This document shows, in pieces, positions 56,227 through 60,354 of a stretch of DNA of 64,000 nt. The notes under the pieces were generated by a model that ran no database searches, was not told where the DNA came from, and saw only the letters and a program-made list of their open reading frames with translations. Within the stretch, counting starts at the first letter, position 1. The number at the start of each line of letters is the position of its first letter. Source of the DNA: Spirobacillus cienkowskii (GTDB lineage: Bacteria > Bdellovibrionota_B > Oligoflexia > Silvanigrellales > Silvanigrellaceae). The stretch is taken from the NCBI RefSeq assembly GCF_037081835.1, contig NZ_CP146516.1, forward strand, positions 1,759,501 to 1,823,500, in the 5' to 3' direction. Position numbers and translations under genes: made by a program.

Positions 56227-56856
56227 ATGATAAAACAAAGTTTTTATAGTCTATTTTTACTAAGTTCTTTTATTATGTTTCCAGCATTTTCATTTAATAC
56301 CGAAATTAATGACAGTAAAATGATTGCATTGGCACAAAGTGCGCAAAGTTACAAGGTCGATCCACTTCACTCTAAAGTAACTTTTGAAGTCGCACATCTT
56401 GTAATCAGTACTGTTAATGGTGAGTTTAAAAAATTTGAAGGAAATTTTAAATTTAATCCTGACGATTTTTCACAATCTCAATTGGACGCTTCTGTTGAAA
56501 CAAACTCTATAGACACCGCCGTTCAAAAACGCGACAATCATTTAAAAAGCCCTGACTTTTTTGATACAAAAAAATTTCCTAAAATGACTTTTAAATCAAA
56601 ATCTGCAAAAAAAACGAGTAGTGATTCTTTTGATTTAATGGGTGATCTCACAATCCGGGGTGTTACCAAGCCAATCACTTTTAAAGTAAAATATAAAGGT
56701 CAAATTAAATCTAAAGATAAAACAATACAGGCTTTTAAAGCCGTGGCAGAAATCAATAGAAAAGATTTTGGTATGAGTTTTCAGAATATCGTTGAAGCAG
56801 GTCCAGTTGTTGGCGATGTTGTTACCATTACACTCGTTTGCGAAGGCATAGGTTAA
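56227..56856 (+). CDS. YceI-family periplasmic protein
   Basis: A signal peptide is followed by the YceI lipocalin-like domain: YKVDPLHSKVTFEVAHL, SVETNSIDTAVQKRDNHLKS, FFDTKKFPKMTFKSK, DLTIRGVTKPITFKV and a late FGMSFQNIVEAG. The family binds polyisoprenoids or similar amphiphiles in the periplasm. AGGAGG precedes the ATG. It is 54 bases upstream of bufA2, so it may share the transcript of the bufferin operon. Confidence 0.92.
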   Translation: MIKQSFYSLFLLSSFIMFPAFSFNTEINDSKMIALAQSAQSYKVDPLHSKVTFEVAHLVISTVNGEFKKFEGNFKFNPDDFSQSQLDASVETNSIDTAVQKRDNHLKSPDFFDTKKFPKMTFKSKSAKKTSSDSFDLMGDLTIRGVTKPITFKVKYKGQIKSKDKTIQAFKAVAEINRKDFGMSFQNIVEAGPVVGDVVTITLVCEGIG

Positions 56857-56909: not shown

Positions 56910-57266
56910 ATGGAAAACAAAAATAAAGTTAAACACGCAGCTGTTGTAGGATTAACTGCAGGCCTTTTATCTGTAGCACCATCAGCGTTTTCTAGCGAGG
57001 TTCATTGCTGGGGGGTTAATAGCTGTGGAGCAAAGTCTTCGGCTAAAGACAAAGCACAATGCACTGTCAACGAAGCGCAAGTGGCTGCAGCAAAAAAAGA
57101 ATTTGGCGATAAATTTAGCAAAGCCAGCACCCATAAATGCGGCGCACAAGCTGAATGCGGCGGAAAGGGTGGTTTTTTAAATTGGACAAAAGTCAAATCA
57201 AAGGACGAATGTAAAAAACTTGGTGGCTTTTTGATGGATAAAAAAGGAAAGATTGAAAAATTATAA
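56910..57266 (+). CDS. bufA2: Bufferin precursor, BufA2 type
   Basis: Exported precursor of a ribosomally made, modified metal-binding peptide. The signal peptide (residues 1-28) is followed by CWGVNSCG, then CGAQAECGGKGG and a C-terminal SKDECKKLGGF, the BufA2 pattern of paired CxGxNxC motifs. Cysteines lie at 33, 39, 51, 77, 83 and 101. Between Cys51 and Cys77 are exactly 25 residues containing AAAKKEFGDKFSKAST, not typical of BufA2. AAGGAG precedes the ATG. It is the first of four genes of the operon. Confidence 0.82.
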   Translation: MENKNKVKHAAVVGLTAGLLSVAPSAFSSEVHCWGVNSCGAKSSAKDKAQCTVNEAQVAAAKKEFGDKFSKASTHKCGAQAECGGKGGFLNWTKVKSKDECKKLGGFLMDKKGKIEKL

Positions 57267-57278
57267 CAGGAGTAAAAA

Positions 57279-57632
57279 ATGAATAAAAAGCCGCTTATTT
57301 TAGCTGCTGCAGTGAGCGGTTTATCTGTAGCAGCAAATGGAAGCGATACACCACAAACAGTAACTCAAGAAGTTGAAAAATGTTTTGGGATTCAAAAAAA
57401 AGGTGAAAATGGATGTGGTATTGAAAACGATGACATTGCAGCAGCCAATGCGGCGTTTAAAAATAAATATAAAAAAAGTACCACTTTTGAATGTGCCGGA
57501 AATGTTTTAGGCTCTGGGAAAAATGGTTACCTGGCTTGGGTTTATGTCGCTCGCGGGTCATGCCACAAAATTGAAGGTGGTTTTCTGATTATTCAAGATA
57601 AATCTGGCAAAAAAACTGTCGATAAAGGCTAA
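57279..57632 (+). CDS. bufA1: Bufferin precursor, BufA1 (DUF2282) type
   Basis: A second exported precursor, 12 bases after the first. After the signal peptide (about residues 1-22) it has EKCFGIQKKGENGC, then ECAGN and RGSCHKIEGGFL, the DUF2282 pattern, with cysteines at 35, 46, 72 and 95. Canonical DUF2282 peptides have only a few residues between the second and third Cys; here there are 25, including AAANAAFKNKYKKSTT, which parallels the spacer of the preceding gene. AGGAG precedes the ATG. Confidence 0.82.
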   Translation: MNKKPLILAAAVSGLSVAANGSDTPQTVTQEVEKCFGIQKKGENGCGIENDDIAAANAAFKNKYKKSTTFECAGNVLGSGKNGYLAWVYVARGSCHKIEGGFLIIQDKSGKKTVDKG

Positions 57633-57637
57633 AGTTT

Positions 57638-58498
57638 GTGACGCAATTATCCCCCTCTCCTCTGTTAAGTTGTAATAATTTAAATCAACAAATTAATTTA
57701 CCACACGGAATTTTTGGCGCTGGACTGAGAGCTTGCCATTACGAACATTGGCATGCCACAGAAACTCTTCCTGTTTTAGAAATCATTGCAGACAACTATA
57801 TGTTTTTAAAAGGTGAACCTGCTTTATACCATTTAGCGCGCATCAAAGAACGTACCACAATTGTTGTGCATGGCGTGGGCTTAAACATAGCAAGCGCCTA
57901 TGATTTAGATAGAGATTATTGTTATGCACTAAAAGACTTTTGTAACTTTATTAATCCTCCAGTTATTTCTGATCATCTTTGTTTTTCTGCTTCTCCATCC
58001 CATAATAGTTTTGACTTACTGCCAATTCCTTTTACTAACGAAACATTAAATTTGGTAAGCAAAAAAATAAATATTGTGCAAGATATTTTAAAAAGACAGT
58101 TAACATTAGAAAATATTTCTTCTTATGTATCTTATCAAGAAAATTCTTATACAGAAATCGAATTTTTAAACGAACTTTGCAAAAGAACAGGATGCGGAAT
58201 ATTACTTGATATTAATAATATTTTTGTTTCAGCATTTAACCACGGTTATGATCCATGGCATGAAATAAAAAAAGTTAACCCTCATTATGTTAACCAATAT
58301 CATATTGCAGGACATTCTCAAATTGAAGATTATTTATTTGATACACATGATAAATTTGCTTGCAAAGAGGTTTGGGATCTTATGCATTGGGCTCTCATAA
58401 ATATTGGTAAAAAACCAGTTATTATAGAAAGAGATGATGCTGATGTTAAATTTGAAGACCTTATTTTTGAGATCAATTATGGAAATAATTTCAGATGA
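57638..58498 (+). CDS. bufB: MNIO/DUF692 modifying enzyme of the bufferin system
   Basis: This multinuclear iron-dependent oxidative enzyme (MbnB/TglH relatives) modifies cysteines of bufferin precursors. Likely metal ligands: His78 (VVHGVGLN), His113 (SDHLCF), Glu158 (LENISSYV), Asp191 (LLDINN), His222 and His226 (YHIAGHSQ), Glu264 (IIERDDA). The protein is 286 residues, as expected. The start is GTG 57638, five bases after bufA1, with AAAGG nine bases upstream. It overlaps bufC by four bases. Confidence 0.92.
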   Translation: MTQLSPSPLLSCNNLNQQINLPHGIFGAGLRACHYEHWHATETLPVLEIIADNYMFLKGEPALYHLARIKERTTIVVHGVGLNIASAYDLDRDYCYALKDFCNFINPPVISDHLCFSASPSHNSFDLLPIPFTNETLNLVSKKINIVQDILKRQLTLENISSYVSYQENSYTEIEFLNELCKRTGCGILLDINNIFVSAFNHGYDPWHEIKKVNPHYVNQYHIAGHSQIEDYLFDTHDKFACKEVWDLMHWALINIGKKPVIIERDDADVKFEDLIFEINYGNNFR

Positions 58499-59337
58499 AT
58501 GATTTAAATTTAAAAAATAATCAAAATTTCTTTTTAGAATTGGTGTATTCAAATCCTAATATTTCTCTAGAACAGTTTTTAGTTCGTCAAGAAATTCATG
58601 CATTCAATGCCAAAACAGTTCATCGAATTCAAGCATATAGAAATTCTTTTTATGCAAGAATTTCAAATGTATTTTCAGAAACTATCTTTGATCTGGCGTC
58701 GTGTTTATTTGGTTCTGATTTTATTAAAGGATTTTTGATTGATTATTTTTATGAAAATCCGTCACCTTTAGAGATGACTGAATCTGTAAAAAAATTTCCT
58801 TCCTTTTTAGAAAAACAAGAAAATATCAGCTACTGCCCTTTTGTTCCAGATTTTATTAAACTTTGTTTAGAAATTAACAATGTATTAGGCGCAAAAAATC
58901 CAGACAGTGATATAGAATTTCATCACTCACAAATAAATGCAGAAAATATATACTTACAACCTGAAATTCAGTTTTTAAAATCCAAGTGGCCTATTTATCA
59001 AATGTATTGTTGTGCAAAAGAAATACAAGAGTTTTTAGACGAAAAAAAATTCAACTCTTTAGAAAATACCATTGAAGAATATCGACTTGATAAACTCAAT
59101 TCAATTTCTGACCGTCCTGAAAATATATTCATCTATAAAAGTTCGCCATTTAACTTAGAATGCATATTAGTACCAAAAGAGTTTGCACCAATTGGCGAGC
59201 AACTTACTTTAGGAAAAAATTTATTAGATGCAATAGAGCACACAGATATTGAAGAAACCAATTTTAACTATGAAAAATTTTCAAAATGGATCTCTTTGCT
59301 TTCAGAAAAAAAAGCATTTATAAAAAAACAATTATAA
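58495..59337 (+). CDS. bufC: DUF2063 partner protein of the bufferin system
   Basis: BufC-type recognition partner that presents precursors to the MNIO enzyme. The N-terminal DUF2063 domain has VHRIQAYRNSFYARISNVFS, TIFDLASCLFGSDFIKGF and a KKFPSFLEKQ helix. The C-terminal half is more divergent and carries LGKNLLDAIEHT near the end, as in family members. Its ATG overlaps the bufB stop (ATGA), so it is coupled. It is convergent with nadM. Confidence 0.85.
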   Translation: MNDLNLKNNQNFFLELVYSNPNISLEQFLVRQEIHAFNAKTVHRIQAYRNSFYARISNVFSETIFDLASCLFGSDFIKGFLIDYFYENPSPLEMTESVKKFPSFLEKQENISYCPFVPDFIKLCLEINNVLGAKNPDSDIEFHHSQINAENIYLQPEIQFLKSKWPIYQMYCCAKEIQEFLDEKKFNSLENTIEEYRLDKLNSISDRPENIFIYKSSPFNLECILVPKEFAPIGEQLTLGKNLLDAIEHTDIEETNFNYEKFSKWISLLSEKKAFIKKQL

Positions 59338-60354
59338 ACCTAAAAAATATTGAATAATCTGAAAATGATCTGCATAAAATTTATCTTCAATTAAGAATAA
59401 ATCATCTAATAAAACCCATTCAACAGAAGACATTTTTTTATTAGAAGATACTTTAGGCAACACATCAAAATCTAATTTATAAAAAATTACAACAGCTTGT
59501 TGAGACTTTACAGGAAATCTTTCTGCATATTGAAAAGTGTGAGATTTTTTAATGTATTTTTTTAAATTAACGGATAAAATATCAAATTTTGTATTTTGTG
59601 CTAAGTTTTTTAAACTACAATTTTCAGCATTATCATGCTTATCAAGTTCGCATTCTGGTAATGAATAGAGATTTTTACTTAAAATGTCTTGATTTTTAAC
59701 TAATAAAATATATCGAGAAGTTAGTAACAATGAATTGCACACAATATCAGGAGTGAAGGTTTTTTTAGGAAAGCGAATTGCAGACTCAACATATTTGTAT
59801 TTTTTTTGTAGTTCTTTAAAATCTGAAGTTTTTCGATATTTTTTTAATGCATTTGCAACCTTAAAAAAGATATTTGAATAATCGACACGATCGACTGAAG
59901 TTAAAAAAAATGAATTTCTAAAATCTGTAGAATTAATGCCTTTATAGTTTCCTGTTTCTAAAAAAACCCAATTAGGAAAAGAACGCAAGTAATAAGAAGA
60001 AGCGTCTTTTTCATGACCCACCAACGCTATCGAAGAATCTCCGGCAATTTTTGACACTTCTCCAATTACATTCGAAACCCACAGGTCTTCTGAATAAAGT
60101 CTATCTCTTACAGTCACAAAACGAACTCTCTTTTTTTGTGCGGGAGTTAAACAAGAAAGAATCATGTCAATACGTTGCTCTGAACTCCAAGGTCCACGCA
60201 CAGAAGGTGCCAAACGATGCCCACCGATCACAATAATAAGTTTGGCTGCATGCTCTAATGCAAAACAGACTGAATGCAAATGTCCTTTATGAAATGGTTG
60301 AAAACGACCAATAAACACTGCGGTTGAAAAAGTATAACTTTTTTTCTTACCCAT
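59332..60354 (-). CDS. nadM: NadM-type nicotinamide-nucleotide adenylyltransferase with a degenerate Nudix domain
   Basis: The N-terminal domain (residues 10-170) is a nucleotidyltransferase making NAD from NMN: FIGRFQPFHKGHLHSV holds the GRFxPxHxGH site and the late GINSTDFR gives the ISS-x-R-like motif. The C-terminal domain corresponds to a Nudix module in NadM-Nudix fusions, but where the Nudix box should be the sequence reads SLPECELDKHDNAENCSL, lacking the G-x5-E and REVxEE glutamates. The Nudix part is probably inactive. AAGGAAG precedes the ATG. Confidence 0.85.
   Translation of the reverse strand: MGKKKSYTFSTAVFIGRFQPFHKGHLHSVCFALEHAAKLIIVIGGHRLAPSVRGPWSSEQRIDMILSCLTPAQKKRVRFVTVRDRLYSEDLWVSNVIGEVSKIAGDSSIALVGHEKDASSYYLRSFPNWVFLETGNYKGINSTDFRNSFFLTSVDRVDYSNIFFKVANALKKYRKTSDFKELQKKYKYVESAIRFPKKTFTPDIVCNSLLLTSRYILLVKNQDILSKNLYSLPECELDKHDNAENCSLKNLAQNTKFDILSVNLKKYIKKSHTFQYAERFPVKSQQAVVIFYKLDFDVLPKVSSNKKMSSVEWVLLDDLFLIEDKFYADHFQIIQYFLGL

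Follow-up and report, generated by a model that had tools for sequence, protein, structure and literature searches.

Bufferin precursors have so far been handled as two separate families, Buf1 and Buf2, whose models are related only structurally. A locus of Spirobacillus cienkowskii, in which two small, predicted exported, Cys-rich precursors (P1 and P2) precede a single MNIO (DUF692) enzyme, raises the question of whether one enzyme pair serves a member of each family there, or whether the two precursors are kin. We examined this locus in a window of 64,000 nucleotides (the whole stretch of DNA that was analysed; GC 32.6%), which belongs to a genome of one contig and 2,806,830 bases. The original prediction was a complete four-gene bufferin-type operon with two different precursor classes, in a possibly host-associated lineage. 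The guess about the lineage was a good one, S. cienkowskii being a parasite of Daphnia (water fleas); within the Silvanigrellaceae, it shares one GTDB genus with Fluviispira multicolorata. The features of the locus are as follows:

56227..56856, + strand: YceI-family periplasmic lipocalin (PF04264, E=5.3e-49), with the ribosome-binding site AGGAGG before its ATG; first gene of the probable operon.
56910..57266, + strand: P1, insert-type bufferin precursor, predicted exported; 118 aa, an open reading frame with a ribosome-binding site and a weak BufA2 match.
57060..57140, + strand: C3-C4 segment of P1 (Cys51 to Cys77) with the helical insert inside; 25-residue spacing, AlphaFold helix 55-69 at pLDDT ~84.
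57279..57632, + strand: P2, insert-type precursor, predicted exported; 117 aa, PF10048 (DUF2282) at 35.8 bits.
57414..57494, + strand: C3-C4 segment of P2 (Cys46 to Cys72) with the same insert as P1; AlphaFold helix 50-59 at pLDDT ~95.
57638..58498, + strand: MNIO (DUF692), BufB-like putative bufferin maturase; 286 aa, GTG start, PF05114 E=1e-82.
58495..59337, + strand: DUF2063-like MNIO partner (PME), BufC-like; 280 aa, sub-threshold DUF2063 match, conserved in the genus.

The open reading frame calls place the last four genes where they had been predicted, with spacers of 12 and 5 bases and then a 4-base overlap. The count of four was one short, as the YceI gene directly upstream had been missed; it lies 53 bases from P1 on the same strand, and no terminator-like site was found between the two. 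Promoter-like sites occur no more often here than in shuffled sequence, and no conserved motif is evident upstream of YceI across the genus. Two precursors with signal-peptide-like starts (judged by eye) stand ahead of the MNIO gene, the DUF2063/PME-type 1 partner follows directly after it, and the operon contains no DoxX gene. At the level of sequence, the assignment of P1, P2, MNIO and partner to a bufferin-type operon, comprising an MNIO, a DUF2063-like partner and predicted exported Cys-rich precursors, is well supported.

The MNIO had been expected to carry the metal ligands of its family, and it does. In addition to the PF05114 match, all nine iron ligands published for TglH (PMC10880893) fall on identical residues (H78, H113, E158, D191, N194, H222, D235, H237 and E264), and the nine are kept in 87 of 88 aligned MNIO sequences. 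BufB is the best NCBIfam model, at 277 bits against a cut-off of 310, which is not an equivalog call. The catalytic-base Asp266 is conserved, and Asp267 occupies the specificity site. This site holds Asp in 34 of the 59 Cys-Lys (Buf2) enzymes in this set and is variable in the DUF2282 enzymes. Because it holds Asp, as in most Cys-Lys (Buf2) enzymes, the MNIO of the window is Buf2-like at this position, despite which P1 itself has few Cys-Lys motifs. The identification of the partner as a DUF2063 protein stood for its family, since six out of six members tested matched the model at E<0.1 (best 1.3e-5), but the window protein itself remains below the threshold, with 18.1 bits against a Pfam cut-off of 27.2. 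Solved structures searched with the partner protein or its profile yielded no real match.

The YceI-P1-P2-MNIO-partner block is conserved by synteny in five further species of the genus, in which gene order is kept from 50.6 kb to 59.3 kb. In the pair G002/G003, dN/dS is lowest for P2 (0.05), followed by the MNIO (0.07), P1 (0.08) and the partner (0.11); in the pair G004/G005, it is 0.09 for P2 and 0.33 for P1. The synteny in five other species and the low dN/dS, a sign of purifying selection, indicate that the block is real and not a chance arrangement. On the opposite strand, a gene at 59332-60354 (-) overlaps the end of the partner gene; by eye, it is apparently a nicotinamide-nucleotide adenylyltransferase/Nudix fusion, kept at this place in three species, whereas the loci of G004 and G005 showed no such gene.

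We consider it likely that these genes form a five-gene bufferin operon in which P1 and P2 are paralogous helix-insert peptides, modified by the MNIO and its partner and chelating copper. In characterised systems, the partner, with a peptide-recognition domain, helps to bind the signal-peptide end of the precursor; the iron enzyme makes 5-thiooxazoles out of inner Cys, each with a mass change of about -4 Da and with absorbance near 305 nm; the two outer Cys are joined by a disulphide in Buf1; and the peptide chelates copper. The published work on 5-thiooxazoles and copper concerns Buf1, oxazolin and fontiphorin (PMC12452194, PMC13097082, PMC13419390). Extrapolating from these relatives, the partner would recognise the signal-peptide end of both precursors, and the MNIO, using a mixed-valent iron centre and O2, would turn inner Cys into 5-thiooxazoles before Sec export. 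Four inner Cys are predicted to be modified in P1 and two in P2, while the first and last Cys would form a disulphide. The exported P1 and P2 would then chelate periplasmic copper, and the YceI lipocalin would probably shield lipids or quinones of the envelope against the oxidative effects of the same stress. By analogy, both P1 and P2 should receive Cys-derived thiooxazoles and buffer copper.

The YceI gene also bears on what the product handles. Lipocalins of this family guard Burkholderia against lipid peroxidation, and the ligands of YceI proteins include isoprenoids such as ubiquinone-8 (PMC9113575). The open reading frames nearby include no recognised copper regulator or copper gene, and the two observations together could point to another metal, or to redox or lipid stress, in place of copper. 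We regard such a function as unlikely, given that the closest characterised relatives bind copper and that copper-type P-ATPases are encoded elsewhere in the genome, which makes copper handling relevant. A role for YceI beside a copper buffer similar to that of the Burkholderia lipocalins is a guess by analogy. Like the BcnA/YceI systems of Burkholderia, the locus encodes a predicted exported YceI-family lipocalin, which is tied here to a bufferin operon and not to cytochrome b561.

YceI is found directly upstream of the precursors in all five other members of the genus with complete loci and in the second S. cienkowskii genome. The same position is occupied in G049 and G054, and in G021 YceI lies beside a stand-alone precursor. 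Of 80 named bufferin loci, 15 have YceI directly upstream: 11 of the 12 from Omnitrophota, that of Fluviispira, two from Deltaproteobacteria MAGs and one from a Bdellovibrio MAG. Since many of them are related by descent, binomial statistics on this count overstate its independence. YceI goes unmentioned in the main text of the 2025 survey, and the papers searched contained no case of it alongside DUF692 or DUF2282. The recurrence of YceI in bufferin operons is apparently new, and it suggests a so far unstudied involvement of bufferins with lipids or quinones.

The two S. cienkowskii genomes differ in both precursors. In P2, the second genome has a run of nine adenines (A9) where the window has eight (A8, ~57393-57401), resulting in a frameshift, so that P2 may be dispensable or one of the assemblies wrong. 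The A8 version gives the conserved protein, as judged by homology, and the difference may reflect an assembly error in either genome, slippage or a true strain difference. The frameshift, along with the observation that not every tandem precursor need be modified (PMC12452194), would fit a locus in which only P1 is a modified bufferin and P2 an unmodified or decaying helper. This, too, seems improbable to us, as P2 is intact in all five other species and evolves at a dN/dS of 0.05-0.09 in two species pairs. In P1, 33 of 354 bases differ between the two genomes, and ~30 of these differences crowd into 108 bases around Cys3-Cys5; the region concerned is 57062-57194 of the window (codons ~51-95), compared with L055:1653-1785 of the other genome. 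The flanking MNIO has a dS of 0.018 between the two genomes. The P1 block looks as if a segment of a diverged allele had been imported. Conversion of P1 by P2 of the same genome, considered as the source of the strain difference, found no DNA-level support when the sequences were compared by eye.

Profile scores would assign the two precursors to different classes. P2 had been described as DUF2282-like, and the model matches it in two stretches, with a score of 35.8 bits (cut-off 22.4); with four Cys (spacing 10-25-22) and a DUF2282 match over the gathering score, it qualifies as Buf1 by profile and Cys count. P1 had been described as BufA2-like, which proved weaker than stated: the NCBIfam model is matched, at 18.2 bits against a cut-off of 60 and over residues 23-47 only. 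Though it has six Cys in its mature part, P1 (spacing 5-11-25-5-17) falls outside Buf2 as defined by the spacing 5-5-6-5-12 and a BufA2 score over the cut-off, and it matches no family in Pfam. A Foldseek search with the P2 model gave no match in the PDB (best E 0.94), and a PHROGs search gave none either.

What the original prediction overlooked is that P1 and P2 are homologous to each other. BLASTP aligns them over their full length (34% identity, E=1e-11), and both carry, in the same register, an insert of ~19 residues between the third and fourth Cys, modelled by AlphaFold as a helix in each case. None of the canonical Buf1 or Buf2 collected here has this insert. The C3-C4 spacing is 25 in P1 and P2 versus 6-8 in canonical bufferins, whose full patterns in this collection are mostly 5-5-6-5-12/13 (Buf2) and 10-8-20 (Buf1). 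The single precursors of related genera mostly show 5-5-25-5-16/17, and the P2 pattern equals this six-Cys insert-type pattern minus Cys2, Cys5 and one residue. In the sister species G004 and G005, the P2 orthologues have five Cys, with Cys2 kept and only Cys5 gone. The G005 orthologue matches BufA2 (1e-5) better than DUF2282 (0.0016), unlike the window P2, for which only DUF2282 was matched; class labels derived from profiles can flip between orthologues of such short Cys peptides.

A tree of full-length precursors, which contains long branches, joined the P2 group (94/91) to the six-Cys single precursors of G010 and G021 (94/94), with five-Cys and four-Cys P2 as sister groups. On the 52 columns common with canonical bufferins, support was low, the insert-type rows falling on one side at 66/92 only. 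A grouping of P2 with Buf1 was not rejected on these columns (AU p=0.31). In the full-length tree, a strict P1+P2 sister pair was mildly disfavoured (p=0.027), so that the P1/P2 duplication may predate the genus. From these alignments and trees, P1 and P2 are best read as paralogues of one lineage-specific helix-insert subfamily, not as two unrelated classes. The four-Cys 'Buf1' look of P2 is best read as derived, the simplest history being the loss of Cys5 and then, in most species, of Cys2; P2 would resemble Buf1/DUF2282 because two Cys were lost.

Tandem bufferin precursors beside one MNIO have already been reported (PMC12452194). As a statement about evolution, the claim of two different precursor classes with one enzyme pair is not supported. 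Independent inheritance of a Buf2 and a Buf1 precursor, later served by the same enzymes, would account for P2 exceeding the DUF2282 cut-off while P1 matches BufA2 only, for the Buf1-like C-terminal half of P2 (WVYVxxGxC) and for the P2+Buf1 grouping not rejected on 52 columns. We nevertheless judge it quite unlikely, since P1 and P2 have a common insert and align end to end, and the four-Cys pattern of P2 is nested inside six-Cys relatives (the 94/94 grouping with G010 and G021), with the five-Cys orthologues of G004 and G005 in between, that of G005 scoring better as BufA2; the KGxC motif is, moreover, present in six-Cys single precursors too. A chimeric P2, its N-terminal half and insert being local and its C-terminal half recombined from a true Buf1, is very unlikely: the C-terminal half is DUF2282-like, and the local block of ~30 differences in 108 bases between the strains' P1 suggests that segmental exchange may occur here, but a similar C-terminal motif already exists in the single six-Cys relatives G007, G049 and G021, so no outside donor is needed for P2.

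The paralogues of the helix-insert subfamily show likenesses to several known systems. As in Buf2 of Caulobacter (BufA2, BufB2/BufC2), P1 has six Cys, a CxGxNxC start and an apparent signal peptide, and the MNIO, with Asp at its specificity site, is accompanied by a DUF2063-type partner. Unlike in Buf2, the precursors have a 19-residue helix between Cys3 and Cys4 and ~4 extra residues before Cys6, the Cys-Lys motifs are mostly replaced by Cys-Gly/Ala/Ser, and YceI stands in place of DoxX. P2 shares with Buf1 (DUF2282, BufB1/BufC1) four Cys at Buf1-like positions, with 10 residues between the first two, and a WxYVxxGxC end; it differs in carrying the insert of P1, in having five-Cys orthologues and in its kinship to six-Cys precursors, and the operon lacks sigma/anti-sigma genes. 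The oxazolin and fontiphorin systems (HvfABC, FonABC; captophorins) also combine an MNIO, a DUF2063 partner and a signal-peptide precursor, and their 5-thiooxazole chemistry is expected here by analogy, whereas P1 and P2 are small folded domains, and EGKCG repeats are absent from both.

The helix-insert bufferin subfamily appears to be new, as does the 6/5/4-Cys series linking the Buf2 and Buf1 patterns. It is conceivable, though we hold this only tentatively and with considerable doubt, that the subfamily sits between Buf2 and Buf1 as a living series from six to four Cys, and that the operon couples a copper peptide of high capacity (four inner Cys) and one of low capacity (two inner Cys) with a YceI protein countering copper damage to envelope lipids or quinones. 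The six-, five- and four-Cys relatives of one gene offer a natural series for asking whether one MNIO tolerates both patterns, and could reveal the sites of modification and the contribution of each modified Cys to copper binding.

Full-length insert-type precursors were detected in 15 species of the phylum to which S. cienkowskii belongs (16 out of 58 genomes, including the second S. cienkowskii genome). They were present in 14 out of 14 genomes with a member of the MNIO orthologue group (over 225 bits) versus 1 out of 42 others (Fisher p=2.6e-12, kinship not corrected for). Precursor and MNIO are unlinked yet both present in G009, G011, G012 and G044, and G021 has a precursor and no MNIO match. 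With the search of this phylum as a positive control, no full-length insert-type precursor was retrieved at 1e-12 from the phylum of G058 (369 genomes) or from samples of the phyla of G061 (398 genomes) and G060 (285 genomes), nor did the named loci from outside the group have one ahead of their MNIO genes. A third, stand-alone precursor copy occurs in G002, G003 and G006.

Several other loci deserve mention. The stand-alone insert-type precursors of G002, G003, G006 and G044 (L158, L159, L160 and L162) lie next to a large, sensor-like membrane protein (in L158 and L162, of 850-860 aa), a possible regulatory link. In G021, whose genome is 91% complete, a six-Cys insert-type precursor adjoins YceI (L163:5500-6600); with no MNIO match, unmodified use, a lost enzyme or an assembly gap are the options. 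In an alphaproteobacterial MAG (L144), a single MNIO is preceded by a tandem pair of almost identical Buf2 precursors. Finally, in relatives of the class, the MNIO loci L022, L026 and L027 have an upstream gene whose product of ~240 aa combines two Cys clusters of the type CGGxxSCKGM with a cytochrome-c-like CxxCH; we read these proteins as bufferin-like cytochrome fusions.
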